Virus record (IMG/VR): IMGVR_UViG_3300030328_002053
Span: 1-29,435 of that record
From: a virus
DNA length: 29,435 nt
Strand: one strand, 5' to 3'
A program made the translations under genes and the position numbers. Below, in pieces: positions 4,901 to 26,815 of the stretch; the first letter of the stretch is position 1, and every line of letters starts with the position of its first letter. The notes under the pieces are model-generated. The model did no database searches. It had not been told where the DNA came from and saw nothing but the letters and a program-made list of their open reading frames with translations.

Positions 4901-7900
4901 GGTGACTTTCTAGGACCCTCTTTATGATTAATAGTACAAATCCTTGCATGTAAATGAGCTGATTTCTTTTTATGTCTTCTTTGAATTTCAACTACTTCAC
5001 CAGGTTGGAAAGTACCTTTGGTCATAGAGATTTCAAGAAGTTTGGGGAAACACCAATCAGTAACATCCTCTCCATCAAAGAAAGCATATAACCTTGTAAG
5101 TGGTTTCATATTTCGAGCGTGGAATTTAATATTCCTTCTTCTCATATATGGAGTAAGTTCTGTACCTACTACTCTTTCACCAAGATTAATAGTATCAATT
5201 TGTTCAACAACCGTAGTTGATGTTCCCGATTTAGTCTTAGTACCAGTCTTATATTCTTTTGATGTAGTAGTCTCAATTTCTTCGAAAACATGATCACCAT
5301 AAACCGTTATACGTTGTCCACCATTACCTTGTCCATTCTTAAAGTTTCTCACATGTCCACCAACTTTATGCTTACCATTTAAGAGACCCTCAAGCTGCTT
5401 TCCTTGAGTCTTTTGGACATCAATAACATCTGTCCTAGTCCCTGTCCAATTCTTCTCCCAAGAACCCCAAACAATTGGACCAAATCCATTTTGAGGATCA
5501 ACTCCAAATTCTTCTTGTGCTTCTTTCATTGTTTCTGCATAATTACCCATTTGTTCGGTAATTTTTGCTTCCAATTTAACAGTATCTACCCAAGTATCTG
5601 ATGAAGGTGTTAAATCTAGATTACCTTGCCAGAAACTAATAAGGAAAGGAGTCACACTTTCAGATCTTGTTGCAAATTGTTGATTTATAAACTCAACTTC
5701 AGAATAATCTAAAGATACAATACCATTATCCCTTCTTACATTATTTCCTTCAATTTGTGTAAATTCTGAATCAAGTGCATCATCTTGATCACCATCACTT
5801 ACAGGACCAAACATCAAATCAACTGAATTAGTATAATGTCTTGGTCTAAGTTCTTTACGATCCCGATCAATACTATTATTAATTCCAGTCTCTGGAAGAG
5901 ATTCTTGTGTTACAAATGTTGTAAAATTATCTACAAACATTCCAGATTTAAATCTATTGAGTCCATCGCCATCTGGAACAAACATATTTGCAGTCTGCAC
6001 TTCCAACATTGAAAGTGTAGTATAATACTCAAGATTACGAATTCTATCTTCAAGTTTTTTGATATCTTTCATTTGATATCTCTTATACTTAAAGAAGTTT
6101 AAAGTAGCATGGTCAACATGGAACAAATATGGAGGTAAAGTTGCCTGACAAATTTCTATAGAATCTTCTACAGGACCTGGTCTTTCTGGTTTTTCAGCAG
6201 GAACTCCAGTTTTAAGAATAAATTCTCCAGATTTTGATAAGAAAATTCTATCAATTCTTCCCAAATAGAAAGAATACGTTGTCTGTAAGACTTCATCAGA
6301 AGCTAATATATTTGGTGGATTTTGCCCATCTACCTTAAAATTCCTTCCAAAGAATTCTAATGGAGATCTTGCCCCTGCAGAAACAGTATAGTTAGATACT
6401 CTAGGTCTTATATCAATTATATCAGAATTACGATGACCATCAACAGAACCTATATCTTTATAATTTATTGCATCATAAGACTCCACAGTAACAATATCAC
6501 CATTATCCGTAGATTCGTAATAAGCATTCTGGAAATAAATTTTTAACTTTTTATCTGGTGCAGTAGTTTTAATCTTTCTTACTACTTTAGCATAATCCCA
6601 GAAAGTGGATTCTTGACCTCTTTTCCACTCATATCCATCAGTTACTTCAAAACTTGGATCAGTTAAAGTAGATACTACTGCTTCACTAGCAGATTCAGTA
6701 GCAATTATAGATTCTCCTTCATTAAATTCAACACCATTTTCACGAATATATCCTAATGTAAGATCATTTATTTTTTCAGCAACAATAGCAATAGCACCAC
6801 TATTCTGTCCTGTTATCCTTTCTCCTATTATAAATCCTGCAGTTGTTCCTGTTGTATTTTTTATTGCAGTTATTGCTGCTTGTGGGCATGAAGGATCACT
6901 AGTATCTGCCGATTCATATATTCCCCAAATTCTAACAATATCTGGATGATTTAATGATATATGTCTATCTTGAACTTTAGTACCAAATGGATAATTACCA
7001 AATGTTAATCCATCATTTAATGATGTTGTACCAATACCAGATGACTCATTATTAGATTTATCAACAATAATAGAATTAACTCTATTAAGTACTTTTCTTT
7101 TTGGAGTTGGTTTTTCCTTTTTCAAGGTGGCAATAAGTTGAGCACCAGTATCTGCACTACCAAGATCAAAGAATTGTAATAATGTACCATCTGCAGTAAG
7201 TGATAACTTATCACCTGTTAGAACTTCAACAGTTCCATCAGATCTTATTAGAGAGTATCTTTCTTCATCAAAGGGTAAAAATGCTTCATTTAATCCTGCT
7301 GCAACTTGTGCTGAAAGTTGATTATTTGCAATATCAACTTCAAAAGTTTTTCTTATAGTAATATATGAATCAGTTAAATCAACTGTAGCAACATTTTCTT
7401 TAGGTAATACAGTATAAAGACTAGAATCTGCACTTGTTGCCGTTTTTGATCCAATAATCTTTAAATCAGTAACCTCAATATTTTCGCTAGGTAAATTTCC
7501 ACGATTTATTCTTGCAGTGCCATATGTTCTTTCAACAATTACATAGTTAGTTGCAGTACTAATTCCAGAACCTACCTCTTTAATTCTACTATAAGTTGGT
7601 TTCCAAGAAGATATTGGATTTGTCCATGAAACCAACATACCTGGTTTTGCCAAATTCAAAAATGTAGGATCAGGTGATACTATAGTGGAAATACCAGTTG
7701 CATGACTATTGTTAGTTCTTGTAGTCATTGTAGCAATACCAACATTATATACAGTCGATTGTACTACATCTGCACTAAATGTATTAATTCCAGATACGCC
7801 ATTATTAGTTGCATATACAGACTCCACATCCTGTAGAGTATGAGCAGTAACAGCTACAGCAATTCTATTAATACTTTGATCTGTATCAAAACTAAGACTT

Positions 7901-9768: not shown

Positions 9769-11319
9769 TTAAAATTGCAAAATGACTTTAATATCTTCTT
9801 TTTGATTTTCAGACCGTACTATGGCAGGTCTATTATCAACATAAATTATATTTCCTGAATATTTTTTAACTTCAGGGCCAGAAATACCTTCGGAAAATTC
9901 TTGCCCAAGGTAATATGTCCTACTATTTATAGTGGTGGAGACACCAGAAAAAATAGTAGCAATAGCTAAATTAGAACCAGTTGTTGGTACAATCGTTAAA
10001 TTTCCACCACCATCAGGAGAACTGGTAAATTGATTTAAATTATATCCCCAAGTCGGAGATGTTTGTGCAGTACCAACGGTATTAAATCCTGCAAGAGTTC
10101 TATCTTGCCAATACTTTAACACTCCAGTAACTTGATCATAATTTATAACTCTTCCAACAGCAGTAACTCCTGTACCAATGTCTTGTTCAAAATAAGAATC
10201 TGCTGTAAATGTTGCTGTACTGTATCCAGTTCCTGTTAATCTAAGAGCATTTAAAACACTTGCTTTATCAACAGTTAAAAGTGCTTCTCCTGTTGATAAT
10301 GGATTTTCAACAATACCCACTCTAGCAATTTGATTGCCTGTTATAAAATCTGGATTTTCGTTATCATTCTCAATCCTAGAATACATCATAACATTCATAG
10401 CACCCAATTCTCTATAGATATCAGAACCATGACCCCCTTGAGGAGAAATAATAACATCAAAAAGAGGTCTTGTTGTACCAGTAGGAACTCCACCTGCAAT
10501 TAAATCAACATTTCCATATGAATATCCAGATCCTTGATTAGAAACTGTTACTGATTCAACTTGCTGATCTGCATCAACGATTATTGTACATTCAGCACCA
10601 TCACCATCACCTCTAATAGGAACAGCAGTATAAGTTCTATTTGCAGTTCCAACACCAACACCACGGTTAGTTATTGTTACAATTTTAATAGATCCATCTA
10701 CAGCATTATTTCTTATAGGAGCATTAACAATACTAGTATCCCATTCAACAGGAACGGGAATAAAATCAGTTGATTCAAATTTTATAATGTCTGCTGGTTT
10801 AATAGTGTAAAGGTATTTCCAAATATATCCGTCACCACTACTTCCAGCATTTCTTGGTTCTAAATCAGTAAAAAGTGGTTGATCTAATGAAGGTCTACCA
10901 TTTGGATTATCAGGATCTGTACCATTCTGAAGACATTCATAGATTCTATAATCTTCATTTACTACAAAATAGTTTGAAGAATATAAATTTGTAGCACCAG
11001 AAACCTTAGCGGGATTTGACCTACTAATATTTTGACGATACATATCATATGTTGTTCCAGATGTCCAAATTCTCTTTGGAACTACCTGTCTAACATCATC
11101 TGCATTAATTTTCTTTAATGCAATCATCGAATCCCAATAATCAGATTCTTCAGTAAAGTTGTCTTTAGGAGCTGGAGGACTTGTATCCCAATCACTTTGA
11201 ATATCTGCAGGATTAGGTAACCCTACAAATGAATAATATGACTTAGCATCAGTAGATACTCCAGCAACAAAGTTCTTTGCATTTAAGATTCTAATTTGAT
11301 CAGTTATAATGGCAGACAT
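9769..11319 (-). CDS. 8: Baseplate wedge protein gp8 (T4-like), enlarged
   Basis: 516 aa, against about 334 aa for T4 gp8. In T4, gp8 is a dimeric wedge component that binds gp7, gp10 and gp6. Family features visible are YRIYECLQNG (about 124-133) followed by GRPS, and DGYIWKYLYTI (about 163-173). The extra length appears to be inserted beta material, including a GxGY repeat at about 253-273 (VESVTVSNQGSGYSYGNV) of the same kind found in both neighbouring giant proteins. It sits 35 bases after the giant protein and 6 bases before the DUF4815 gene. A late-promoter-like GATAAATA lies about 22 bases upstream of the start. The identity is well supported; the role of the extension is unknown. Confidence 0.88.
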   Translation of the reverse strand: MSAIITDQIRILNAKNFVAGVSTDAKSYYSFVGLPNPADIQSDWDTSPPAPKDNFTEESDYWDSMIALKKINADDVRQVVPKRIWTSGTTYDMYRQNISRSNPAKVSGATNLYSSNYFVVNEDYRIYECLQNGTDPDNPNGRPSLDQPLFTDLEPRNAGSSGDGYIWKYLYTIKPADIIKFESTDFIPVPVEWDTSIVNAPIRNNAVDGSIKIVTITNRGVGVGTANRTYTAVPIRGDGDGAECTIIVDADQQVESVTVSNQGSGYSYGNVDLIAGGVPTGTTRPLFDVIISPQGGHGSDIYRELGAMNVMMYSRIENDNENPDFITGNQIARVGIVENPLSTGEALLTVDKASVLNALRLTGTGYSTATFTADSYFEQDIGTGVTAVGRVINYDQVTGVLKYWQDRTLAGFNTVGTAQTSPTWGYNLNQFTSSPDGGGNLTIVPTTGSNLAIATIFSGVSTTINSRTYYLGQEFSEGISGPEVKKYSGNIIYVDNRPAIVRSENQKEDIKVILQF

Positions 11320-11354: not shown

Positions 11355-14300
11355 TTACACAGTGTAATTTTTATACTTAAGAGAAGCATATCTCTGTACC
11401 AAAGCAGAAGTATGAATACCAGTAGCAGGAATAACAGTAACTATTCCAACTGGAAGACCTATTCCAGCAAAATTACCAACTGAGAAGCTGCTTTGACCAA
11501 CTCCTATACCATTTTGATTATATGCTTGGAAAGAATTTATACCAGACCTTGAAGGTAAGGTAATCAATCCCCAACTATAATCACCAAAGAAATCAGAAGT
11601 TCTAATTCCAACAGTTCCATACCAACCAGATGGGGTTGATCCAACTCCAACTGTAACCCTTCTAACATTTGTAGTAATACCAGAAACTGATGTTGATATA
11701 CTGACAGCAGCAGTTACTTTATAGACAGTATCAACAAAGTGAGTTGCTATTCCAAGTGTACTGGAACCATCTAGAGAAATCATAGATGTAGTTGCAACAC
11801 CAACGTTAGAATTAGTGACAACAAAATAATCATTTACATTTAGAGAACTTAAACTAACAGCAGTTGCAACACGACTAGTATTTCTTAATTCAGAATCATA
11901 TGGAATATGGAGATCAAATTGAATTTGATTACTGGTTGTAGTTCCAAATCCAACAATTACACCACTATCACCCACATAACTGTTAACATTATCAATTTCA
12001 TCAACAGAAGCAGGTGGAGAAATAAGAACTTGTGGAGGACTATCAGTAGTATATCCATAACCAGGATTAGTAATAGCAATACCAGTTATAGTTCCAGCAG
12101 CACCAATTGTTACTGCTCCAAAAGCAGTTGTAGTCGTACCAACACCAACACCACCCATCATTGTATTACCAATACTTACTGTTGCAGTAGTATAACCTAC
12201 TCCACCATCTGATATTACAATAGATGATATAGTTCCAAGACCAGAAACTATAGCAGTAGCAGCAGCACCAGTTTTATTCTCTTGACCAATAAAAGCAATC
12301 TTATCTTGGAAAGTAAGACTTGTATCATTCTCATTCTTAGGATCGAAGAATGGTCTTACACTATCAACATAAATTGCAGTTGATCCTACACCAACAGTTT
12401 TAATAACATATGCTGATGGTTGAATATTTGGTTCATATATTTCCCTATCTTTAGCAATTTCCTGCTCATTAATAATCCTATCTTCAGTTTGACGTACCCA
12501 AACAACAGGTCTCATTAAATCTGCATCTTGAGTATTTCCTGGTCCAAAGTATGGTGTTGAAATAATAGAATCTGTGGATGTTACAGTAGTAACTTCTCTA
12601 GGATCTTCTTGAAGGTAATCTGGTTGACCTATAGAAGCATCGTATCCTAATACTATATCATCACCTGGTTTAACAGTTTCTAATATTGGTACTGAATTAA
12701 CATCTATTCCAGCAGTTCCCTTATAGAACATTATTTTACATGTATCACCTGGTTTAGGTGCTTCGGTAAAGGTTAATATACTTCCTCCAGTAAATGTATA
12801 TGCTCTACCAGGAATCTGAAGTATATCATTTACAAATATTAGAAGAATATCTTGTACATTAATTTTAGATCCTTTACCTGATAAAATAGATACTACATTA
12901 TTAGATTTCTTTAATTGGAAAGTAATAGTGGTTCCATCAAATAAATCTTCTATTTTATCCATCATTTCTAATTGACCAAAGTTCCATCCAGTCATTTCAT
13001 CATTAAATACATCATCAATTGTAAGTTGGAACTCTTTTGATCCAAAATCAGCAGTTGTTGGAATACCAGTTAATCCACCTACAGGAACAGTTAGAATTTC
13101 TCCATTACCATAACCATATCCTCTATTCGTAAGATTGAATGAAATTACACTAGATCCTTGTCCAACAACAACATCAATAGTTGCAGTTGATCCCACTCCA
13201 GTTACAGAATCAGAACTGTAGATCAATGGCATATTTGAATAAGAAAGTGGAGCATCAATCTTTATAAGAGGTGGATTAGTTGATGTATGAATACCTAATG
13301 TACCTACTCCAGTGACTGAACTAATGCCCGTTATATAACCATTATTAATAATTGCAGTAGCAATACCAGTAAAGTAAGTTGCATTCTTACCTTGTGAACT
13401 AATTCCAACATTTACAGTTTGAATTCCTGCCCTATATCCAGAACCACTATTTCCAATACTGATTGATGCAATTGTTCCAAGACCAGAAATTACTGCAGTT
13501 GCACCAGCAGAAATTAGCGGTTGATATCCAAATCCTTCAGTAGAACCCACAGAAACTATAATACCACCAACAGGGAAAGTTGATATCCCAACATCATCCT
13601 TAATGGTTTTTGCATTACCTACAAAGGAGATAGTAGTAATTCCTGCAGTATCATCGAAAGTATAATCATAAGTTGCTCCTCTTCCCTGAACAACACTGTT
13701 AACTAAGATTAAAGCACCAGTCGATATTCCTACAAAATCAGAACCGTTAACCTTTAAATCAAATTGATTTCTAATTCCATTGAATTGATTAGAAATGCTA
13801 TCAATAATGTAATTAGAAGAATATGCTTCATTCGTTCCACCAGTAATTCCAGAACGCATAAACATTCTACCTTGGAAACTATATCCAGTAGAAATACCAG
13901 TCCAATCCCTATCATCTGGATCAGCAGTATCGGTACTTAATGGAGTATTTCCAACTGGAGCATCAACAAAGTTTAAAGTGTTCTGAACAATATTATAAGC
14001 ACCAATAACCTTTGTTACAATAGTATCAGTGGCATATCCTGCAAGAGGTGTTCCCATCCATCCTCGGTCAACCCTAATACCATTAGATACACCAACACCA
14101 ATTTCTGTAACTTGTACAATTTCACCAGTAGTACCAGCACCAAGTCTAACCAGATCCTCCGCAAAGAATGAAGTAATTCCACTAAAGTAGAAAATATCAT
14201 CAGTAGTAAATACAATCTGGGAAAGATGAGAAGTAACTGCTGTTGCAACAACTGGTGACTGAATAACGTTATCAAGAGCAAGAACAACTTTAGAATTTTG

Positions 14301-17300
14301 ATTGGTTGCTACAAATCTATGAGATGATCCAATACCTACACTAGTAAAGTCTAACGCCTCTGGTATAGTTTTAAGAGCGTTTTGGGCACTAGATGCCAAT
14401 CTAATAGTATTATCATCAACTTTAATAACATATACATCACCAGGTAATTTTTCAGTTGTACCAATTCCAACGAAGGATGCTGAACTAATTCCAATAGCTT
14501 GAGTGGCACCAATACCAGAATGGATATACTGAACTTGCTCACCAGTAACAAAGAAATGATTTGGTATGGTTATAGTGCTTGAAGCAACACTTACAATAGA
14601 AGTATCATTTCCTACAAAATCCGTATTGAATATTTCAATACTATTATGAGTTAATGGGAATGATCTCTTAATATCATTAAGAGTTCCTTGATAAGTACCA
14701 TAGTTGGTCTCGATTGTACCATTATTAAACTCAATAGTATCTTTATTATCATCCTGAATCTTCAATGCATTCATATAGGTGTTAACCTGACAAGCAATAT
14801 TTGCATTTGGAGTGAATGTAATCTCACAGTAAGAAACTCCACCTTGATTTTTCTGCAATCTACTTCCAATAGTACCTAATCCTGAAAGAGTTTCTATGTT
14901 TGCCCATTCAGTATCATAAGAAGTTCCAATTCCACTCTCTTCACTATAATCTTCCAAAACAAAGAATTCTGATAATTGATGTTCATTATTTGTGGTATCA
15001 GTAGCTTGGACCAATACATAAGCACCATCATAACCATCAGTTTCAGGGTTAAACTGAGTTGGGAAACTTGCAATACCAACAGGAACTGGAGATCCAGAAG
15101 ATGAAATTGTATTTGCTCTTGCTTCAAGAAGAGCATGTTTCATACTAACAGATCCAGTTCCAGTAGTAGTATTTCCAATCGCAACTTGCATGGTATTGAC
15201 TATACAAGTAGTTCCAATTCCAGCATTTGGATGGAAATCAAGTTTAACTGTTCCACTCTGAATATAAGCAGAGTAGGTTCCAAATCCTTGAGCAAGGTTA
15301 GCAGAATTGGTAACCATTTCACCATATTCTAAAATATCTACTTCACTTCCATCATGAAGTAAATTAATCTCTTCAAATTCCCAATCTTCACTATTAATAG
15401 TTTCTCCATCTCCACCAGCATCAGGTGTTATACTAACTAAAATCTTAGCAGAACGATATGTTGTACCTAAACCCACAACCGTAGTAGTTGTTCCAGCTGC
15501 AACTTTTGTACTTGTTGAATCAATATGAACACATCCAAGACTTGTAGTTCCTATGCCAAGATAATTATCATCTAAATTAAATGCTAAAGTAGTAACATAG
15601 TAATCATTCTTCTTAAATCTTGTTGGATAGAATAATACTTGACCCTCTGTACCAGAAACTTGGAAATCAAATGTACCTAAATCATAAACATTATCAATCT
15701 TTGCATATTGGTTAATATAACCAAAAGTACCATCATGCATAAGATCAACTATCATTACTTGTCTTTGTCCCGTATATCTTTGGTCTTTAATTAGTGTAAA
15801 ATATTTTTTCGCTCTATGTTCTGTTAACGTAAATGTATCAACTATACTATAAACTGTTGCTCTAGGATTACTATTAAATGTACCACTCATGTCATCTATA
15901 GTAAGAACTCTATTACTTACAGACTCCTCATAATCACTTAGAATTCTATTAGCAAAAATTACTTCATCTGATACAATAGTACCAGAAACTTGTCTAGCAT
16001 TTTCTTTAACTAAATCAAAATCTGATACAGAATGCATACTAACAGCAGAGAATACATCATGAACAGAATTAACCATAGTTTTTTCTGTAGATACTCCTAC
16101 AGTCAATTCTCCCAAAACTTCACTTTCTATTTGAAGATCAGAGAATTTTCTAAATCCAGATGTATGATTTAATGAACTTACAGGATCTTTCCAAGTATCA
16201 AAATCAATTTGAGATTTTAATGAATATGAGAAATTTTGGTAATAAAGACTATCTTCTATTCTTTGTAATCTAGAATTAAGGAACCCCGATTCAGTTTCCC
16301 AACCATGAAATCTCTTACAGAAAGCACCATAATCAAGATCAGCAGCAAATGTTTGTATTTTATCAGCACGTCCATGAGTATGAGAAGATTTTCCAATAAT
16401 AGTTTTATCTTTATAGAATACATCTGTAGTCGCAATTTTTAACATTCCAATTTTCTTATCCCATCTATCAACAGTACCTTTTACTTCATCTCCTAAAAGA
16501 TTTTTAGATACTACTTCTTCTCCTTGTAGGTAATCATTTTGCTTAAGAACGGTATTAAAAACTGGGAAATATTTTTCTGGTATAATTCTTCCAGAAGAAT
16601 TTGCATTCTGATAAACACCAGGAACTTCTCCATCAGATAATTCACCATCAAGACTATATGCAACTGTTCCAATTCCACCAATATTTTGATCAACTGCATT
16701 TATAGTGAAAAGTTTATAATTGTAATCTGATGAATTATAACCTTTTCCTGTTGATCCTAACCCAACACTAACATTTTCAATTAGAACTTTATCACCTAAC
16801 TGTAAGGGGAAAGATCCTGCAGTAGTATATCCCACATTTAAAGTAACAGTTACATCTTTAGTTGTACTGTTAAATCCAATTGTATTAATTCCTATACCAT
16901 TTGTGTTGTGTGTAGGAATAATTGTGGGAGTAACATTATGAATTCCATAAGTATTTTGAAGAATAGATATTTTCTGATTTTTAATATCATATTTAAAGTC
17001 TATATTAAGATCTAATTCATTTGTTTTACCATCAAATAAAAGTAATTTTGGTGCAGTAGAATACCCCCTTCCAACAGAAGTAATTGCTACAGATTCAACA
17101 CTAGCAAATTCTTTTATTGTTACAATTTGTGGTAATGCTACACTTGGTTCCAATGTTGGATCTGAAGGGAAATTAAATCCAATATTTTGAATTTCCGTTC
17201 TAGTAATTTTACCAATACCAATACTACCAGGTTCTGCTATACATGAAACACCCTCCTGTGAAGAAACAGAGGTAATTCCAGGAAGTGAATAATAATTTTT

Positions 17301-20300
17301 TCCACCATCAATTATATTAAATTCAGCTATAGGACCTAAAGCAGTCTTAGAATTAGTTCTATAACTTAAATTAGATGTAGTTCCAGCATATGATACCTTT
17401 TCTGGATAATCTCTAAGAGTATATGTGAAAGAATTTGTTGCAGCTGCCCCAAGTGTTAATAATTCATTAGAAACTTCAAACAATCCACTATATACACTCT
17501 TATAGCTATCTATTTCATGCCCATTAAGAACATCAGTATCTACATTAACTTCTTCTTTTTCTATTGGTAGATCATTCTCAAATACAGGAACAAGACGATA
17601 ATATAAAGTTTCTGGTATATACTTATTAGCAGTTAATTCAAGTTTAGCGTTTGTATCAATTCCAACTCTTCCTGATTTTATAACTTGGAATTTTTCAGTA
17701 TGAGGATTTTTATTCCATTCTTTAGTACAAGAACTATCCGCATATAATTGGAAATCAAATGCAGGATAAGATATTGTACCTTTAGTATATGATAAAGAGG
17801 AATCTGATAAATCAAAAGTGTATACTGAATCTTTATATATGTTTATTGGAGGATTAACTGGATTTAAAACACCATTAGATGCACTTGATCCTATTGAAAC
17901 AACAATAGGTTTAAATAAAGTTGCATTATAATGACTATTTGCTAATTTTATATTATTTTTATCAATTTTAACTACATAATAAATTCCATTATCATCTAAT
18001 CCATAAGTTACGTGTCCTGGAGCAGTATGAACAACCTTTTCTCCAGTCTTTAATCCATGATCAGTTATTGTAATAGTATTAGATGAGGTTGTTATCCCTG
18101 AAGTATTAAATCCTACAGGATCTACAATAAGTTTTCTATTATAATCATTATATTTTATAGTAGAAATACCAGTATTACCTGGATTTACACTCATATTAAT
18201 TTGATCTCTTACATTTAATCCATGAGTAGATGCAGTAGATACTGTTACAAGGTTTCTTGTAGCTTCTCCAGTAATTGGAACATATTGAGTATTAAAACTA
18301 TGATAAACTCCTGTTCCAATCCCAGTAAAGAAAAGTAATGAAGAATGTCTATGTGTTGATGCTATACCAACCCAATTCCCCGATTCATTAACAAAAAGTT
18401 TACAAGTTGAAATTCCAAGAAAATCTTTAGATAATTTATTAGCATAAACAGTTTGCCCATCAGTTAATGTTGTACCAGCACCTGCCCATATTTGGAAAGA
18501 AGGACCAAATCCAGTTGGAATTGTATCACCATATGAAGTAATATTAGAACCTTCACTAGTAGCTGCTACAGATACCTGAGACTTACAGCATAATAATTGT
18601 ACTTTAGATGCAGTGGCACCTTGACTTGTAGTAGTTGTTGGGTATAATGATGGTGTAAATGCCGATGTATAAATTGCTTCATCAACAGTATATCTCAAAT
18701 TAGAAATATAACCATTAAAATATCTGTCCTGCGATGCAGAAGTCTTATGAGCACCAATATGGACTACAGTTCCATTACCAGTTCTAGTACCACTTAAAGT
18801 ACCACTTGCCTCAACTACACCATTAATAAAAATCTTTCCAGCAGTACCTGATAAAGATGCAGCAACATGATACCATCTTCCATTCAATATACGATCTGCA
18901 CTGGTTGATATGTTAAGTAAATCAGTACCATTATCTGCTTCTACTAAAAGATTTAAATCACCAGCAGAAGTTTTAGAATAAGTTAATCCTATATTAGATG
19001 CACTACCTACAGAGGTATTAAAGATTTGCATCATTTTAGAAGCATCTTTTACATAAATCCAAGCTTCTATTGTAAAGTTTTTATTTTCGACTTTATAATC
19101 AGTACTCGTACTAGTCATATAGTCTCCAGTTCCATCAAACAAGACAGAACCTTGAATTAGAGTGGTTGTAGCAGCAGCAACAATCCCACTACCATTACCA
19201 GGTGAATATACTAAAGAATCTCCAGTTTCCCACTTATGATTCTCAAAATACATTACTCTAGTAGGAATAAACATTCCTGTTACACCTGCACCAGCTTTAA
19301 CTCTACTTTCATCAAAATAGACTGTAGATCCAATACCAACACCAACACTAGTACCTACTCCAACATGGTGTGATGGAACAAAATAGGTTTGTTCATTTAC
19401 ATTACCTATACTAGTAGTTTTAAATCCAGCATTTATAATAATCTTTCTAGGATCATCTTTAAATATTGATCCAACAGTATGAGAAACACCTACTGTACCA
19501 TCAACTGCCCTTATTACTCTAATTCTTGATAATAATTTATCTACATTTAAAACTTTTACCCTTTCAGTACCAATTCCTAAAATATCATTTTCTTTAATAT
19601 GTGGATAATCAAGACTTCCACTAACAGTAAAGTAAGTAACTATTCCAGTTACAGCAGTAGATCCTATTCCACTAGGATTTGTGGTTCCAACACCAACTAA
19701 TTTCAATGAATCAGTTGTAAGACCTACTTTATAAACTCCTTCCAACCCAGAAGATGTTGTAGATAATCCAGAAATTGAAATATCATCACTTACTTTCCAA
19801 TTATGAGGATTATCTGCCCATAAAATCCACTTACCACTTCCAGTATCAGCAGGATAAAATTCAATTCCACTAATAGAACTTGTTGCAACACTTACATTAT
19901 TAATAACAGATCCATGAAGTTGAGAAACTTCTGCTTTTGCTCCTGATTTAGGGTCAGGTTCCATTTGCAAAGTTCCAGTTGGACTTGTAACATTTGTAAG
20001 TCTTGATCCCTTTCTAACAGCTGCAGTATCTCTATTATCAAAAACTACTTCATCATAAATTTTATAATTTCTTCCACCACTACTAATACCAATAGTTTCA
20101 ACCATTCCACGGGTTGTTGATAAAATATCAACTTGCTGTTTTAATTTTTCTGGTATGTAAGTATAATTATAAGTTTTATTTCCTTCTATCAAATTATAAG
20201 GAGCAGTATTTCTGAACCAATTACCATTTGAAAAATTAAAGGAATCTTGATTTGAATCTAACTGGAAATTAAATGTTTCTGGAATTGAGTGATAATTTTT

Positions 20301-23300
20301 ACCAATTAAATAAGGGAATTTAGGTTCTCTATACTCTAAGAAAGGACCAGCAGATGCTGTTGCAGTATCAATTGTTGCAAAATAAGCATAGGTTCCTTCT
20401 GGAAATTCTGGAGTAATACAATATCTTCCATTATTTTCATCAAGAACTGAATCATCATTTACCTTAGTATAAGTATAATCTTCTACAAAATATCCTTCTG
20501 GGAAGAAAGTTTCTGGAGGTCTCTCTGCTTTCATTTTAAGAGTATATCCAGATTTCATTTGTGTAACTACACCACCTCTTCTATTTGCATATCCATATGG
20601 ACCATATATTGGATTTCCATCATATGCCCATCCAATTATAGGAGAATGTCCTGTAGATGAAACTTCTGATCCGTTTAATTTGGTTAAATCTTTTTGTCCA
20701 TATAAAACACTACCATCTTGATCTGTCGAATTTAAAGATTCTCTAAGTTTTCTAGGAGCATATAAATGAGTATATTGAAGTCCATTATCATTATAACCTT
20801 CGGTCATAAATCCATCATCTAAGGTAAATTGATTAAAATGCTTTCCTACTAAATCTACACGCCATTTTTGAAGAACTCCCCTAAATTCTGCACCTCCACC
20901 AGTAAAATCAACAAAAGCTACTGTAGTGGATTCTGTATATCCTTCTCCACCAGCAACTACTTTAACACCTATAACTTGATTAAGATCTCCTGGATTTACT
21001 CCCATTACAGGAACAACAACAGCACCAAATCCATCACCACCCCTATCATCAATAACTATATCTGGAGCACAGTTATATCCAGATCCACCATTTAGAACTG
21101 ATATATCAACAATCTTACCATTCTCAATAATTGGTTTTAATTGAGCTTGATCCCCAAAAGAAAGTGTTATAGAAGGTTCTCTAACATAATCCATAATTGT
21201 GGATGATCCATATCCAATACCATTTTCACTTAAATAAACACCAGTTACTGACCCTCTACATATTGGTTGAAGTTGAGCTTTAAATTCATGTAAACCTACA
21301 GAACTTACTCCAACTTGTCCTTTTACAGTAATAGAAACTGGTTCATAATTAAAACAATGATTTCCTTTACCTTGAGTTGTAAAATCAATATACTGTTTAG
21401 TTCTATAATATAGTTCTTTATCTATTGTTGATATACCAACTTGGGATAATTTAAATTGATTATCATCAATTTTAGTTACATAATAATCAGTATTAGTGGT
21501 AAGACCAGTAATAACTGTTGCGTCAGTTGTAAATCCAGCATAATCACTATTATTATCTTCAATTGAATATCTTACTATCTCTCCAGAATCATATCCATGA
21601 TTTTTAATAGTAATAGTATCTAAAGAAGTACTTACTCCAACTGGTTTTGTAGATCTCTTTTTATATTCATACCCAACTCCAGTAGAAACAACATTAACAG
21701 AATCTAATATGGCTTTTCTATTAATTGACTCAAACCTCTGTCTTCCTACTCCATAATCACTTATAGTGACAGTGTTAATACCCACAATTGCATCTATCTG
21801 TGATTTGTGTAATTTAATTGTTGTTGGATTGATATATTGAACATAATATGTTGCATTGGTACTAAGACCAGACAATCCATCTTGACCATCACTATGATAA
21901 ATTACATGTTCAGCATTCCTAAATTTATGATAAGTAGAAAATCCAATTGTTGATTGAGTAGCACCAATACCAATATCATTAACACTTTGTGCGCTGAAAT
22001 TAACAGAATGAGCAACCATTTTAATGTTAGGTTGTGCTACTGCACCATAACCATTACCACCTTTAATTTCAATAATTGGTTTGTCTATATAATCAAATCC
22101 AGTATCTAATACCCTAATTTCTTCCAAAGATCCAGTAATATCAACATAACCAGTAGCTCCAACACCTACATTATCTTCAATATGTAAAAGAGGTGGTTGT
22201 AAAATATCATATCCACCACCAGCAGCAAGAACTTCAATATTTTCAAGTTTTCCAGCATGAACAACTTGTTTTGCTTTATAATTTTTTATTTCAACACCAT
22301 TCACTAAAACCCCAGTACTACCAGGTACAGTTTCATATACAGTAGAATCTGTAATTGGTGTACGAACCAATCTTAATAATTTTTGAGATTCTAAAGTTTT
22401 AAGTTTAAATTTATAAGGTTCTATTTTATTATCTTTAACAGTTATATTATTGGTGATTTGAATATAATTCCCTCCTTGAATATCTGCGGGACTTTTAGCA
22501 AATCTAACAGTAGTTGCATTTTGTCTTCTTATAAAATATAAACCCTCATCAAATAGGTAAGACTTAGTTACTACTCTAGTTCTAGTTTCTCCAAAATTAT
22601 CAATATAAGTCTCTAAAACTTTTTCAGGAGTATACCAAACAGCATCTCCAGTATAAAATCCATGATCTACAGTATCTGAGATTTGAAATACGCTAGTAGG
22701 AGCAAAGGTTCCCTCAATTTTAATTGAACGATCTGAAACGTTAAGTGGTTGTGCATTATATGATGGTATGGAAGGAGATGATATTAAATAATCATTTCCT
22801 TGCTTATATACATTTTGTACGTTGGTTATATATCTTGAAGATCCTGGAAAGGTATTTGATATTGATCTTAAAAGATATCTCTTAACAGTATATGTTGCAT
22901 CAGGTGAGAGATCTTCTTGATCTTTAATAATAAATGATTTCTCAGATTTTATTTCACTGATAGTAGAAATTGGTTTTACTTCACCAACATTATTAACAAG
23001 AGAAACATTATCCCCAACACGGAAGTAGTGATTTTTTTCTAAATTAATTTGATATGTTTTATCAGAAGAATCAATTAATTCTATACTTGCAACTTTATAA
23101 TTTGTTGCAACATTATAGAACCAACCCTTTCCTTGAGAAGATATATCAGAAACACCTAAAGTTTTAATTTTAGCGGTGTCTCCATGAGAATAATAACGAG
23201 TATTTGGTGAATATTTAAAGTCTGACAATACATTATTCATCCTAACTCTAATAAGAGTCTCTCCATCTTTACTTGAATAACCATAACAATAAGTATTAAT

Positions 23301-24473
23301 TCCAACATCCTCACCATCTTCAATTATTTCTATTACATTAGAACATCCAAAAAACTGATTTAAATTTTTTGAGGTATATGAAACTATTCCAAGAGTGGTA
23401 TCATTATATCTTACTGATAATTCTCCTGATTGTGGAAATCCAACTGTAGAGTCTACATCAAATATAGTAGTTCCAGCAGATACTTGCCCAATTATCTTTG
23501 TTTTAGGATGAACAACAAATGTTCCGTAAGTTGCACCTTCTACTCTAGAATCTCTATTATAACCAGCATCTAAACTAATTTTATAATATGTTTTACCAAC
23601 TCCTGTAATACCAGGACTAATTTGCTCTACTTTAGTGATAGGGGCATAGGCTTTGCCCATAACACCATTATATTCATCCTGAAATAATGTTGCAGTTTCT
23701 AATTCTAATGGATCTCCACCCTCAACACCTTCAACACAGAAATCATTTGTAATAATATAGTGAGCATTTGATGGGGTAAAGAGATAATCCCTTGGTCTTA
23801 CTATTTTTACATTTTCATTATATAATGCTTTAAATAAAATCTCAAAGGCTGTATCAGTTCCTTTACTACTATAAAAATCCTTTGATTGTTTAATAAAAAT
23901 ATTTTTATCAACTTGTTCATGAATATTTCTTTCTTCAAAACCTGGTAAAAGTTGATGTTTTGTCTTTAATAAAAAATCTTTCAGAAAAAGATTACTTAAA
24001 TTCTCTATTGTAGCACCTTTTTCATGATTAACTGCTACTGTAGAGTCAAAAACAAGTTGATCTGGGAAATTTTCATCTCTATATGATGAAATACCACTAA
24101 ATCCCCTAACACATCCATTAAAAGAAGTTTGACTTTTAGAAGTGTATGTAATTATTTCATCACCAATCTTTATCAATCCATAATTTTTTGGAAATCCATC
24201 AGTTCCAGCAGGATAATTTGATAAATCAACAGAAATTGTTTTTTCAGCAAAATTAATATCAGAACCCAATCCAACATGATCAATTGTATTAGTTAATTCA
24301 TCAATTTTTACATATTTGTCAATATTTTGAATTAAATCAGCAGGAGCACTCTTAAATTCTTGTGAAACATAATAATTTTTAAGAAATTCCGAAATTAACG
24401 GAAATTCTGTTCTTACATACGTTGGAAGTTGATTTTCAACAACGCTACTAAATTTAACTCTGTTTTCTGACAT
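11355..24473 (-). CDS. 4372-aa baseplate protein in the T4 gp7 position, with YHYH and LamG domains
   Basis: A single uninterrupted frame between gp6 and gp8, the T4 gene 7 slot (T4 gp7 is about 1032 aa). The N-terminus (about 1-250) is a mixed alpha/beta region (VKFSSVVENQLPTYVRTEFP, FLKDFLLKTKHQLLPGFEER) typical of this cyanophage protein. A YHYH-type domain lies at about 1265-1385 (HSPIIGWAYDGNPIYGPYGY), and a LamG/concanavalin-like domain at about 1775-1945. Most of the rest is beta-rich. It includes about eleven GxGY repeats, at least five modules of the form HG..TGE.V.Y...YYV.KID.N.IKLA, and more than twenty G[IVL]G[TS]T loops. It starts 1 base after gp6. A wedge-initiator role like gp7 is inferred from position; I cannot show sequence homology to T4 gp7. 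Adhesion through the lectin-like domain is also inference. Confidence 0.8.
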   Translation of the reverse strand: MSENRVKFSSVVENQLPTYVRTEFPLISEFLKNYYVSQEFKSAPADLIQNIDKYVKIDELTNTIDHVGLGSDINFAEKTISVDLSNYPAGTDGFPKNYGLIKIGDEIITYTSKSQTSFNGCVRGFSGISSYRDENFPDQLVFDSTVAVNHEKGATIENLSNLFLKDFLLKTKHQLLPGFEERNIHEQVDKNIFIKQSKDFYSSKGTDTAFEILFKALYNENVKIVRPRDYLFTPSNAHYIITNDFCVEGVEGGDPLELETATLFQDEYNGVMGKAYAPITKVEQISPGITGVGKTYYKISLDAGYNRDSRVEGATYGTFVVHPKTKIIGQVSAGTTIFDVDSTVGFPQSGELSVRYNDTTLGIVSYTSKNLNQFFGCSNVIEIIEDGEDVGINTYCYGYSSKDGETLIRVRMNNVLSDFKYSPNTRYYSHGDTAKIKTLGVSDISSQGKGWFYNVATNYKVASIELIDSSDKTYQINLEKNHYFRVGDNVSLVNNVGEVKPISTISEIKSEKSFIIKDQEDLSPDATYTVKRYLLRSISNTFPGSSRYITNVQNVYKQGNDYLISSPSIPSYNAQPLNVSDRSIKIEGTFAPTSVFQISDTVDHGFYTGDAVWYTPEKVLETYIDNFGETRTRVVTKSYLFDEGLYFIRRQNATTVRFAKSPADIQGGNYIQITNNITVKDNKIEPYKFKLKTLESQKLLRLVRTPITDSTVYETVPGSTGVLVNGVEIKNYKAKQVVHAGKLENIEVLAAGGGYDILQPPLLHIEDNVGVGATGYVDITGSLEEIRVLDTGFDYIDKPIIEIKGGNGYGAVAQPNIKMVAHSVNFSAQSVNDIGIGATQSTIGFSTYHKFRNAEHVIYHSDGQDGLSGLSTNATYYVQYINPTTIKLHKSQIDAIVGINTVTISDYGVGRQRFESINRKAILDSVNVVSTGVGYEYKKRSTKPVGVSTSLDTITIKNHGYDSGEIVRYSIEDNNSDYAGFTTDATVITGLTTNTDYYVTKIDDNQFKLSQVGISTIDKELYYRTKQYIDFTTQGKGNHCFNYEPVSITVKGQVGVSSVGLHEFKAQLQPICRGSVTGVYLSENGIGYGSSTIMDYVREPSITLSFGDQAQLKPIIENGKIVDISVLNGGSGYNCAPDIVIDDRGGDGFGAVVVPVMGVNPGDLNQVIGVKVVAGGEGYTESTTVAFVDFTGGGAEFRGVLQKWRVDLVGKHFNQFTLDDGFMTEGYNDNGLQYTHLYAPRKLRESLNSTDQDGSVLYGQKDLTKLNGSEVSSTGHSPIIGWAYDGNPIYGPYGYANRRGGVVTQMKSGYTLKMKAERPPETFFPEGYFVEDYTYTKVNDDSVLDENNGRYCITPEFPEGTYAYFATIDTATASAGPFLEYREPKFPYLIGKNYHSIPETFNFQLDSNQDSFNFSNGNWFRNTAPYNLIEGNKTYNYTYIPEKLKQQVDILSTTRGMVETIGISSGGRNYKIYDEVVFDNRDTAAVRKGSRLTNVTSPTGTLQMEPDPKSGAKAEVSQLHGSVINNVSVATSSISGIEFYPADTGSGKWILWADNPHNWKVSDDISISGLSTTSSGLEGVYKVGLTTDSLKLVGVGTTNPSGIGSTAVTGIVTYFTVSGSLDYPHIKENDILGIGTERVKVLNVDKLLSRIRVIRAVDGTVGVSHTVGSIFKDDPRKIIINAGFKTTSIGNVNEQTYFVPSHHVGVGTSVGVGIGSTVYFDESRVKAGAGVTGMFIPTRVMYFENHKWETGDSLVYSPGNGSGIVAAATTTLIQGSVLFDGTGDYMTSTSTDYKVENKNFTIEAWIYVKDASKMMQIFNTSVGSASNIGLTYSKTSAGDLNLLVEADNGTDLLNISTSADRILNGRWYHVAASLSGTAGKIFINGVVEASGTLSGTRTGNGTVVHIGAHKTSASQDRYFNGYISNLRYTVDEAIYTSAFTPSLYPTTTTSQGATASKVQLLCCKSQVSVAATSEGSNITSYGDTIPTGFGPSFQIWAGAGTTLTDGQTVYANKLSKDFLGISTCKLFVNESGNWVGIASTHRHSSLLFFTGIGTGVYHSFNTQYVPITGEATRNLVTVSTASTHGLNVRDQINMSVNPGNTGISTIKYNDYNRKLIVDPVGFNTSGITTSSNTITITDHGLKTGEKVVHTAPGHVTYGLDDNGIYYVVKIDKNNIKLANSHYNATLFKPIVVSIGSSASNGVLNPVNPPINIYKDSVYTFDLSDSSLSYTKGTISYPAFDFQLYADSSCTKEWNKNPHTEKFQVIKSGRVGIDTNAKLELTANKYIPETLYYRLVPVFENDLPIEKEEVNVDTDVLNGHEIDSYKSVYSGLFEVSNELLTLGAAATNSFTYTLRDYPEKVSYAGTTSNLSYRTNSKTALGPIAEFNIIDGGKNYYSLPGITSVSSQEGVSCIAEPGSIGIGKITRTEIQNIGFNFPSDPTLEPSVALPQIVTIKEFASVESVAITSVGRGYSTAPKLLLFDGKTNELDLNIDFKYDIKNQKISILQNTYGIHNVTPTIIPTHNTNGIGINTIGFNSTTKDVTVTLNVGYTTAGSFPLQLGDKVLIENVSVGLGSTGKGYNSSDYNYKLFTINAVDQNIGGIGTVAYSLDGELSDGEVPGVYQNANSSGRIIPEKYFPVFNTVLKQNDYLQGEEVVSKNLLGDEVKGTVDRWDKKIGMLKIATTDVFYKDKTIIGKSSHTHGRADKIQTFAADLDYGAFCKRFHGWETESGFLNSRLQRIEDSLYYQNFSYSLKSQIDFDTWKDPVSSLNHTSGFRKFSDLQIESEVLGELTVGVSTEKTMVNSVHDVFSAVSMHSVSDFDLVKENARQVSGTIVSDEVIFANRILSDYEESVSNRVLTIDDMSGTFNSNPRATVYSIVDTFTLTEHRAKKYFTLIKDQRYTGQRQVMIVDLMHDGTFGYINQYAKIDNVYDLGTFDFQVSGTEGQVLFYPTRFKKNDYYVTTLAFNLDDNYLGIGTTSLGCVHIDSTSTKVAAGTTTTVVGLGTTYRSAKILVSITPDAGGDGETINSEDWEFEEINLLHDGSEVDILEYGEMVTNSANLAQGFGTYSAYIQSGTVKLDFHPNAGIGTTCIVNTMQVAIGNTTTGTGSVSMKHALLEARANTISSSGSPVPVGIASFPTQFNPETDGYDGAYVLVQATDTTNNEHQLSEFFVLEDYSEESGIGTSYDTEWANIETLSGLGTIGSRLQKNQGGVSYCEITFTPNANIACQVNTYMNALKIQDDNKDTIEFNNGTIETNYGTYQGTLNDIKRSFPLTHNSIEIFNTDFVGNDTSIVSVASSTITIPNHFFVTGEQVQYIHSGIGATQAIGISSASFVGIGTTEKLPGDVYVIKVDDNTIRLASSAQNALKTIPEALDFTSVGIGSSHRFVATNQNSKVVLALDNVIQSPVVATAVTSHLSQIVFTTDDIFYFSGITSFFAEDLVRLGAGTTGEIVQVTEIGVGVSNGIRVDRGWMGTPLAGYATDTIVTKVIGAYNIVQNTLNFVDAPVGNTPLSTDTADPDDRDWTGISTGYSFQGRMFMRSGITGGTNEAYSSNYIIDSISNQFNGIRNQFDLKVNGSDFVGISTGALILVNSVVQGRGATYDYTFDDTAGITTISFVGNAKTIKDDVGISTFPVGGIIVSVGSTEGFGYQPLISAGATAVISGLGTIASISIGNSGSGYRAGIQTVNVGISSQGKNATYFTGIATAIINNGYITGISSVTGVGTLGIHTSTNPPLIKIDAPLSYSNMPLIYSSDSVTGVGSTATIDVVVGQGSSVISFNLTNRGYGYGNGEILTVPVGGLTGIPTTADFGSKEFQLTIDDVFNDEMTGWNFGQLEMMDKIEDLFDGTTITFQLKKSNNVVSILSGKGSKINVQDILLIFVNDILQIPGRAYTFTGGSILTFTEAPKPGDTCKIMFYKGTAGIDVNSVPILETVKPGDDIVLGYDASIGQPDYLQEDPREVTTVTSTDSIISTPYFGPGNTQDADLMRPVVWVRQTEDRIINEQEIAKDREIYEPNIQPSAYVIKTVGVGSTAIYVDSVRPFFDPKNENDTSLTFQDKIAFIGQENKTGAAATAIVSGLGTISSIVISDGGVGYTTATVSIGNTMMGGVGVGTTTTAFGAVTIGAAGTITGIAITNPGYGYTTDSPPQVLISPPASVDEIDNVNSYVGDSGVIVGFGTTTSNQIQFDLHIPYDSELRNTSRVATAVSLSSLNVNDYFVVTNSNVGVATTSMISLDGSSTLGIATHFVDTVYKVTAAVSISTSVSGITTNVRRVTVGVGSTPSGWYGTVGIRTSDFFGDYSWGLITLPSRSGINSFQAYNQNGIGVGQSSFSVGNFAGIGLPVGIVTVIPATGIHTSALVQRYASLKYKNYTV
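18638..19151 (-). other. LamG/concanavalin A-like domain inside the giant protein
   Basis: Residues about 1775-1945 follow the Laminin_G_3 pattern: opening LFDGTGDYM, then FTIEAWIYV, a central GRWYHVAASLSG, then GKIFINGVVEASG, and closing GYISNLRYTVDEAIYTSAF. These elements are diagnostic of the LamG/pentraxin jelly-roll fold, which commonly binds carbohydrate. The domain sits between beta-rich segments and looks like an inserted module. Calcium or sugar ligands cannot be assigned from sequence alone. Confidence 0.85.
20365..20655 (-). other. YHYH-type domain inside the giant protein
   Basis: Residues about 1273-1369 contain HSPIIGWAYDGNPIYGPYGY, then later LDENNGRYCITPEFPEG followed by TYAYFATID. 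This is the layout of YHYH-domain proteins (Pfam YHYH), whose name comes from a Tyr-His-Tyr-His stretch in the segment after a PEFP/PDYP-G-T motif. Here that stretch reads YAYF, so both histidines are replaced. Function is unknown. Confidence 0.75.
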
Positions 24474-24474
24474 T

Positions 24475-26400
24475 TTATGCTCTTACTAAGGCTCCATTTT
24501 GGTAACTTGAGCTTACAGTATATTGAGATCCTGCAGGATCAGCTCCTGATGCAATTTGATCAACAACTGGTTCAAAAATACTACTACCTATATCTAGTTG
24601 TAAATATAAATCCTGTAATCCAATTACATCATTAGATTTAGGGCAAACTGACAATTCAATAATAGATTGTCCGTCTTTTATTTTACCAGAGGTAGTAACA
24701 ATTGGATTTAAGGTTATTATTCCAGAAACATAATTAACTACTCCAATATTTCTTCTAATAATAGTTGGACTATATGAATTTGGATTAGGAAGAGTAAATA
24801 AGAATAATGATCCAGTTGTTCTATTTGTATTGGGGATATCAGAAATATAAACAGTGTTAGTTATTCCTTCCACAGTAAATCCAGAAGATTTAATATTATA
24901 CCCACTCATACTTCTAATATGGAATTGATTACCATATCCAATAGAATATTCAGTGACTTTGTTCAATATCAATCTTAAATCCCTTCTCATCTCAACTGTT
25001 GTGATATTAGAAGTAATTGCTTCATGACTTTGATCAATAATATTCAAGAATTTACTATATTTAAATCGTGCCCCATACTTATTTAACTCACTAGATTCTG
25101 CGTATTTATTTCCATTATTTTGAACTATGCTAGTAACAACTGCACCATTTCGGGCAAGATTTGAATTATAATATATTTTAGATCTAATTTCAAGATAAAG
25201 ATATTTAAGATCAAGTATTTCTGGAACAATTCCAGCAACAGCATACTTTTTCAACCTCATTTTAATGTTTTCTTTAATAATATTAGGTAAAAAGTCTCCA
25301 GTTCTTGGTTTTATACTAATAAAAACCTTTCCATATTGAGGTGGGATTAATTCTTCACCTCCAAAAACTGAAATTGACTCAGTTTCGGGATAAATTCTTG
25401 CTGGAACCAAAGATTCATAATCTGCAGCAGTAACAGCTCTATTCTGAGATGCGTATATTCTTGGAGCAAATTTTCTAATAGAATCTACTGATTCTATCAT
25501 TTCACCACCAGTAGCAAATGTATTAGTGGTCATTAATGAAATGCCAGATGTTATATTATATTCTTCACCATTTCTACTATAAGTAAGACTTCCACTAAAT
25601 GACAATTGACCAACCCCATTTCCAGTATCACCACTAGTAACAATATAATCTGCTTCTATAAAATTACCTTCTTCCAATTTTTTACCAAAAACACCATCAC
25701 CAAACAATAATTGGTATCTTTCATCTTCAATTTCTTGTAAAAAATAAACTTTTGAGTCTTTACTAATGTCAAAAAGACTGCTATGAGCATTATATTTGGT
25801 TTTTGCAGTTGATTGCTCGTTACTTTTTACATGTACCGAAATTAATTCAGTATCAACACCAGCATTTGGTATAATAAACTTCTGAGTTGGGTTTCTTAAG
25901 CTATATGTGAAATCAATATTTAAAACATTACCTTCATATACCATTATATCTGTAAATTCTGCAATATTATTGAAAACAGGGACAGAAATATCCTCTAAAA
26001 TGGAAAAAATATAAGATTGATTACCAAAACTACCTGCTGTAGTAGCAACTACTCCTTTCTTAAGAGTAACAATGGATGGAGAAGGTACAATATCAGTAGT
26101 ATCTACGAAAAAACTAACCGAAGTTCTAGATGATTTTCGAGAACGAGGTAAATATCCAATATTTCTTGCTAATGAGACTATATTTTCTCTTAAAGTTGCA
26201 CTATCAATGAATACTTCATTCGTAACCATATTGGCATTGTATGAAGTTATGTAAGTATTATATGCCAATAAGTCAACAACAGTTGATAAATTAGACCCCT
26301 CGAAGTCATAATCCGTAAAATTTGCATTTGTCTGAAGATAATCCTTCAGAGTTGTCTTAATCTGGTCAAAATCCAGATTTGAGAAATTAACTAATGGCAT
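24475..26400 (-). CDS. 6: Baseplate wedge protein gp6 (T4-like)
   Basis: 641 aa, close to T4 gp6 (about 660 aa). In T4, gp6 dimers form the inner ring that joins neighbouring wedges and belong to the baseplate J superfamily. The N-terminal region has the family pattern: FDQIKTTLKDYLQTN (about 10-25), DLLAYNTYITSYNANMVTNE (about 44-63), then LRENIVSLARNIGYLPRS. At about 322-363 is the gp6/J-type core (AADYESLVPARIYPETESIS, VFGGEELIPPQYGKVFISIK). It starts 4 bases after gp25 and ends 1 base before the giant protein, the standard 25-6 order. No unusual insertion was noticed, in contrast with gp8. Confidence 0.93.
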   Translation of the reverse strand: MPLVNFSNLDFDQIKTTLKDYLQTNANFTDYDFEGSNLSTVVDLLAYNTYITSYNANMVTNEVFIDSATLRENIVSLARNIGYLPRSRKSSRTSVSFFVDTTDIVPSPSIVTLKKGVVATTAGSFGNQSYIFSILEDISVPVFNNIAEFTDIMVYEGNVLNIDFTYSLRNPTQKFIIPNAGVDTELISVHVKSNEQSTAKTKYNAHSSLFDISKDSKVYFLQEIEDERYQLLFGDGVFGKKLEEGNFIEADYIVTSGDTGNGVGQLSFSGSLTYSRNGEEYNITSGISLMTTNTFATGGEMIESVDSIRKFAPRIYASQNRAVTAADYESLVPARIYPETESISVFGGEELIPPQYGKVFISIKPRTGDFLPNIIKENIKMRLKKYAVAGIVPEILDLKYLYLEIRSKIYYNSNLARNGAVVTSIVQNNGNKYAESSELNKYGARFKYSKFLNIIDQSHEAITSNITTVEMRRDLRLILNKVTEYSIGYGNQFHIRSMSGYNIKSSGFTVEGITNTVYISDIPNTNRTTGSLFLFTLPNPNSYSPTIIRRNIGVVNYVSGIITLNPIVTTSGKIKDGQSIIELSVCPKSNDVIGLQDLYLQLDIGSSIFEPVVDQIASGADPAGSQYTVSSSYQNGALVRA

Positions 26401-26404
26401 CTTA

Positions 26405-26815
26405 TTACCTGTTTGATTCTAAAACGAATTCTAATTGTTGTGCAGGAACATCTGTTCCTATTATTGTATATCCAATTATCACATCAAAAGTGTTATTATC
26501 ATAATTAGGAAATGCTCTTACTCCATCAGGTTGCAATAATTCAACTCTAGGTTCAAATCTTTCTATAGAATTAATAATTTCGTCAACAATAATTGACGCA
26601 GTAATGTCATTTATGTTTTCAAAAAGACTTGCAGTTATGCGAGATCCAAATTCTGGATTGAAAAACTTCTCTCCAGGTAGAGTAAATACGATATTTTTCA
26701 ATGAACGAGCTATTGCATTCTCATTTTTGAGTGCAATTAAGTCTTTCGTCAGAGGATTTGCCTGAAATGACATGCTAAGGTCTTTAAAACCGTTATTTAC
26801 CCTTTCTAAAGGCAT
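26405..26815 (-). CDS. 25: Baseplate wedge protein gp25 (GPW_gp25 family)
   Basis: 136 aa; T4 gp25 is 132 aa. gp25 links the central baseplate and sheath to the wedge and is among the most conserved proteins of contractile injection systems. Visible signatures are FTLPGEKFFNPEFGSRI (about 44-60), SLFEN, and the invariant Glu-Pro-Arg core at 88-90 within RFEPRVEL. The C-terminus has the usual beta strands (FDVIIGYTIIGTD). It is the first gene of the structural operon in this window, preceded by a 48-base AT-rich gap with an AATAAATA motif. Confidence 0.95.
   Translation of the reverse strand: MPLERVNNGFKDLSMSFQANPLTKDLIALKNENAIARSLKNIVFTLPGEKFFNPEFGSRITASLFENINDITASIIVDEIINSIERFEPRVELLQPDGVRAFPNYDNNTFDVIIGYTIIGTDVPAQQLEFVLESNR

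Follow-up and report, generated by a model that had tools for sequence, protein, structure and literature searches.

We found that gp7, the baseplate wedge protein encoded in the window (the whole stretch of 29,435 nucleotides analysed here, from the IMG/VR virus record IMGVR_UViG_3300030328_002053), carries a LamG domain within a 232-residue cassette, at a site that is cleanly empty in most of its relatives. The cassette was probably gained once, in the ancestor of a single lineage of uncultured marine cyanophages, and on balance it may well act as an additional lectin-like domain for contact with the host surface.

The window encodes a T4-type gp7 protein with a LamG domain

The following genes and domains frame the analysis:

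26405..26815, minus strand: gp25 baseplate wedge (Pfam GPW_gp25, 51.4 bits)
24475..26400, minus strand: gp6 baseplate wedge (Pfam Gp6-like_1st, Gp6_C-I)
11355..24473, minus strand: gp7-like baseplate wedge protein P0001, 4372 aa (PHROG_2885; between gp6 and gp8; synteny)
20361..20879, minus strand: YHYH domain of gp7, residues 1199-1371 (Pfam PF14240, 90.1 bits)
18693..19136, minus strand: LamG core of gp7 (Laminin_G_3, PF13385), residues 1780-1927 (Pfam; Foldseek)
9769..11319, minus strand: gp8 baseplate wedge (Pfam Phage-Gp8, 58.7 bits; PHROG_438)

The genes are arranged in the order gp25-gp6-gp7-gp8, followed by the gene of a DUF4815 protein and, at the end, that of a T4 neck protein. The gene order is identical in Bellamy and S-SM2, where the orthologue of the 4372-aa ORF is annotated as gp7/baseplate wedge initiator. 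This ORF matches PHROG_2885 (baseplate wedge subunit) with 3569 bits, while the Pfam Baseplate_wedge model (PF23786) scores 17 bits, under its cut-off of 27, so that the identification leans on synteny and on the PHROG. By these two criteria we assign the ORF as a cyanophage T4-type gp7 baseplate wedge protein, which agrees with the preliminary description in placing the LamG domain in the baseplate wedge. Several features of the surroundings were also recorded. The YHYH domain of gp7 is 74-99% identical among close relatives; the DUF4815 protein (2619 aa, window positions 1903-9762, minus strand) follows gp8, and the S-SM2 gene in the equivalent place is annotated VrlC; in Synechococcus phage B23 (L007:4768-16547), gp7 is annotated as two successive ORFs of 2845 and 1081 aa.

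As the preliminary description had proposed from the letters alone, gp7 contains a LamG domain. In a Pfam profile search Laminin_G_3 matches residues 1780-1927 with an E-value of 4.3e-20 and 72.8 bits, where the cut-off is 27.6, and the five motifs quoted earlier are located in the ORF at residues 1778, 1800, 1865, 1879 and 1921, where they are hallmarks of the family rather than chance occurrences. Searched against the PDB with phmmer, the domain matches the S-layer protein 4qvs (3.4e-08). An AlphaFold2 model of the cassette (42 sequences) has a mean pLDDT of 84 and a pTM of 0.86, and with this model Foldseek retrieved pentraxins, laminin LG and neurexin LNS domains from the PDB at E-values of 1e-7 to 1e-8, about 5e-8 for pentraxins and 9e-8 for laminin LG5; PAPP-A is also among the matches. 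Against BFVD the search returned many phage LamG proteins, including a 'Baseplate wedge initiator' of ACG-2014f. Thus, the LamG domain in gp7 is real and its predicted fold is the concanavalin/pentraxin beta-sandwich. In score, motifs and predicted fold it is like other LamG-like concanavalin domains of PF13385, but its setting is another one, a wedge-protein loop in place of a fibre or an enzyme. A full scan of the 30,401-base record, itself a fragment of the genome in IMG/VR, found no second LamG.

The LamG domain belongs to a cassette inserted between two conserved strands

The insert and its flanks are delimited as follows:

19182..19778, minus strand: upstream acceptor flank, residues 1566-1764, last strand HKWETGDSLVYSPGNGSGI (conserved in 92/92)
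18486..19181, minus strand: inserted cassette, residues 1765-1996 (232 residues), LamG plus C-terminal tail (missing as a block from 80/92 relatives)
18495..18692, minus strand: cassette tail, residues 1928-1993, YTSAFTP..TTTSQGATASKVQLLCC..GD..F (recurs after LamG repeats in other phage proteins)
17877..18482, minus strand: downstream acceptor flank, residues 1998-2199, begins GAGTTLTDGQTVYANKLSKDFLGIST (conserved in 92/92)

Viral contigs were scanned with three profiles, for the cassette or for either flank, and after removal of duplicates 92 distinct gp7 sequences contained both flanks. The cassette lies between the flanks in 12 of them, with a spacer of 235-237 aa; in the other 80 it is missing and the spacer measures 8-21 aa, with a single exception of 89 aa. 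Apart from this outlier, no spacer of a size intermediate between empty and filled sites was found among the 92 sequences, and no LamG was found anywhere in the examined sequence of the 80 non-carrier ORFs, 47 of which are at least 3400 aa long. The outlier is DSL-LC03 (L008), whose spacer occupies residues 1681-1769 of the gp7 ORF and has no LamG match. The acceptor loop of the relatives differs in both length and sequence.

The same picture emerges from isolates. Pairwise alignments to Bellamy and S-SM2 close over a gap of about 232 residues, and in Bellamy gp7 a few residues separate ETGDQLTYSPGNGSGI from LSNNQTLFAAKISRDVIGIST downstream of it. The gp7 proteins of Bellamy, S-SM2, P-TIM68 and RN05-S are orthologous and possess both flanks, but have a loop of 8-13 aa where the window has LamG. 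Among deposited phage records, none covers at least 80% of a query composed of LamG and both flanks: those with both flanks are without LamG, those with LamG are without the flanks, and no deposited isolate was found with LamG at the window's gp7 site.

These alignments correct two points of the preliminary description. The flanks had been read as unrelated beta repeats; they are instead two successive strands of one conserved region, directly joined in relatives. The interval 18638-19151 proposed for the domain does span the LamG core, but the inserted unit is bigger (18486-19181) and comprises 232 rather than 171 residues, because the cassette brings its own tail. A model of the cassette with its flanks has an overall pTM of only 0.34; locally, the insert is enclosed by confidently predicted strands, at residues 1753-1757 on one side and 2007-2013 on the other, which is consistent with a cassette sitting in the hairpin loop between two strands. 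An imperfect 12-bp direct repeat (TGCTGCTACAAC / TGCTGGTACAAC, at about 18490 and 19170, minus strand) is present near both junctions with 11 of 12 bp identical. An equally good repeat occurs in 4 of 55 random pairs; the match is not above chance, and we do not claim a target duplication at insertion.

The carriers form a single clade

In a tree built from the flanks only, the 12 carriers, all of them metagenome contigs of which several may derive from overlapping samples, are set apart from all other sequences by a single branch, which has 100/100 support and is recovered in 100% of the bootstrap trees. The presence or absence of the cassette requires one change on this tree. Since the carriers form one fully supported clade, a single gain is the simplest history, and the cassette was probably acquired once by the ancestor of this clade, in frame, and has been inherited since. 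Lateral insertion, which the preliminary description had considered plausible, is supported because the empty site is clean in 80 of the 92 relatives, rather than the domain being present in all, and because the 12 carriers are one clade. We infer cyanobacterial hosts for these phages from those of their relatives.

LamG domains occur at other sites of gp7-like proteins

The presence of LamG in a cyanophage gp7-like protein is not in itself unusual; only the site is. Syn33, S-CAM8, ACG-2014b, S-M1 and P-SSM4 also have LamG in a gp7-type protein, in the same gene neighbourhood as in the window, after gp6. In Syn33 the gene of this protein (Syn33_092, L200:3720-22850, 6376 aa) lies between gp6 and gp9, in the place of gp7, and towards either end the protein is largely collinear with that of the window. 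It contains two good LamG units at about residues 4150-4330 and 5154-5375, far from the window's site, and a divergent LamG-like stretch at residues 2258-2405, inside a broad interval that matches the window's region. The LamG domains of S-CAM8, S-M1, ACG-2014b and P-SSM4 are comparable to those of Syn33. In all five phages it is the C-terminal half of the protein that holds the strong LamG domains, at positions that do not match the window's insert, the flanks of the window's site were not found, and the LamG domains fall on other branches of the tree. More generally, the giant gp7-like proteins of isolated cyanophages (L200, L009, L012, L013, L015, L017) have two to three LamG-like domains each, at non-corresponding sites, and include one divergent LamG copy of about 40-55 bits.

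Flank profiles gave at most weak and scattered matches around residues 2258-2405 of Syn33_092, and for this reason we do not claim homology of the Syn33-type site with that of the window. It is very improbable that LamG at this gp7 site is ancestral and was lost in every other lineage: the divergent domain of the Syn33-type homologues (~40 bits) does lie in the broadly corresponding interval, but the carriers are one nested clade for which one change is enough, the Syn33-type flanks cannot be aligned to the window's site and the Syn33-type LamG domains group away from the window's cassette, so that the flank tree led us to reject an ancestral domain with many losses. Because the LamG domains of the isolates lie at other sites, it seems that gp7-like proteins have received LamG cassettes at several positions. 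Deposited sequences (Syn33, S-CAM8, ACG-2014b) already provide examples of gp7-like cyanophage proteins with LamG, and no paper on LamG in cyanophage gp7 was found in the open-access literature; what is new here is the window's LamG site, its clean insertion and the recombination of the cassette.

The cassette resembles a unit shared by marine phages

In alignments, the start and end of the cassette coincide with the ends of the LamG units of other phages, including the tail YTxxFTP...LLCC...GD...F.P. About thirty other phage LamG units (L201-L254, various) contain the tail motif TTTSQGAT, often as TTTSQGATASNVKLLCC and often followed by LLCC, and many of these units are in multi-LamG proteins. 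This suggests that marine phages share the TTTSQGAT-tailed LamG as an exchangeable module. The closest deposited match of the tail is in Marine virus AG-345-F15 (54.7% over 53 aa), in which a two-LamG protein (L014:7684-9648) is encoded directly upstream of the terminase large subunit gene. The tandem-LamG proteins of marine phages (AG-345-F15, L201-L210, Phage DSL-LC04) share the LamG plus TTTSQGAT..LLCC repeat unit with the cassette; unlike the gp7 insert, they are separate proteins with several LamG units each.

The tail motif makes a candidate type of donor recognisable. No specific donor was found in the LamG-unit trees or among the deposited tail matches. In two LamG-unit trees the carrier clade sits on a long stem and its neighbours differ from one tree to the other; we therefore claim neither a donor nor direct descent from a known one.

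The cassette shows a recombination signal that its flanks lack

Between the window and its closest relatives (L018 and L020), dN is 0.08-0.10 and dS 0.15-0.16 in the cassette, compared to 0.01-0.03 and 0.08-0.12 in the flanks; the cassette has an excess of amino-acid change. When L021 and L022 are compared with L023-L026, both dN and dS are raised in the cassette, where dS is 0.54-0.64; the flanks have a dS of 0.21-0.40. A PHI-type recombination test, a small one run with our own script on 11 clade sequences, gave p=0.002 for the cassette, which is the floor of 500 shuffles, and p=0.49 and 0.31 for the flanks. As the signal is present in the cassette and absent from the flanks, it suggests that cassette alleles have been exchanged between lineages by recombination.

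Overall hypervariability of the cassette was also considered and was rejected, given that it holds among close relatives only and that over longer distances the cassette diverges no more than other parts of gp7 do (it is 67-71% identical, while 100-residue windows outside it range over 45-97%). Among the 11 clade members compared, 121 of the 232 cassette positions are invariant. Substitutions fall in strands in 14 of 35 and 16 of 42 cases, strand residues making up 100 of the 232; by this count loops are not clearly enriched in substitutions, L019 (4 of 21 in strands) being the exception. Taken together, recombination and excess change would fit a surface-contact module, with glycan binding as its putative activity.

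Possible roles of the cassette on the baseplate

The reading we lean towards is that the cassette is an extra lectin-like domain for contact with the host surface, carried by the baseplate wedge. On this reading, a self-folding unit, made up of LamG and the tail that accompanies it in other phage proteins of adhesin type, was inserted in frame between two beta strands of gp7, in what is presumably a surface loop. This probably happened once, in an ancestor from which a single lineage of uncultured marine cyanophages inherited it. The cassette would hang off the wedge, presumably exposed, as an added contact domain. In T4, gp7 lies at the periphery of the wedge and numbers six copies (PMC3004832), and with the same stoichiometry about six cassettes may be displayed per particle. 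They could add weak, multivalent and reversible binding to host surface glycans near the trigger of the sheath. A precedent is offered by Pseudomonas phage K8, in which a variant of the putative wedge protein GP075 binds the core oligosaccharide of the host directly and widens the host range, although this is a point mutation in a different protein and not a LamG insertion in gp7 (PMC9887876). In the coevolution of cyanophages with Synechococcus, mutations arise in wedge and adhesin genes (PMC9910659). Recombination may, in turn, reshuffle the cassette alleles between lineages.

LamG folds also serve in protein-protein contact and in structural or spacer roles. One alternative is that the cassette serves as decoration or as a spacer, has no specific ligand and became fixed because an insert is tolerated in this loop. 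This is possible but rather doubtful: the variable acceptor loop of the relatives, the frequency of LamG units as passengers of giant phage virion proteins and the overall divergence of the cassette, which resembles that of the rest of gp7, speak in its favour, but the cassette is intact in 12 of 12 members although their flanks diverge to ~65% identity, recombination is seen in the cassette and not in the flanks, and dN is higher in the cassette among close relatives. It is unlikely that the cassette binds instead another virion protein (a fibre, a gp8/gp9-like connector or a whisker) and aids fibre attachment or wedge assembly rather than host contact. T4 gp7 does touch gp6, gp8, gp9 and gp10 (PMC3004832), and LamG domains often bind proteins, with neurexin and PAPP-A among the structural matches reported above; yet relatives with the identical gp6-gp7-gp8 order manage without the cassette. 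Binding to marine particles, gels or other non-host surfaces, for attachment to particles or dispersal, is improbable, even if sulphated or acidic polysaccharides are possible ligands of LamG folds.

Implications for host recognition by cyanophages

The means by which marine T4-like cyanophages recognise Synechococcus and Prochlorococcus are poorly known. The LamG cassette is a single piece of protein whose binding is directly measurable, and its clean presence or absence in an otherwise conserved wedge protein provides a natural pair with and without it. In a wider and more tentative view, cyanophage gp7 might be an evolvable scaffold for lectin display, which LamG cassettes enter at several independent sites and where they then recombine separately from the remainder of gp7; part of host recognition would then be encoded in the baseplate wedge and not in the tail fibres.
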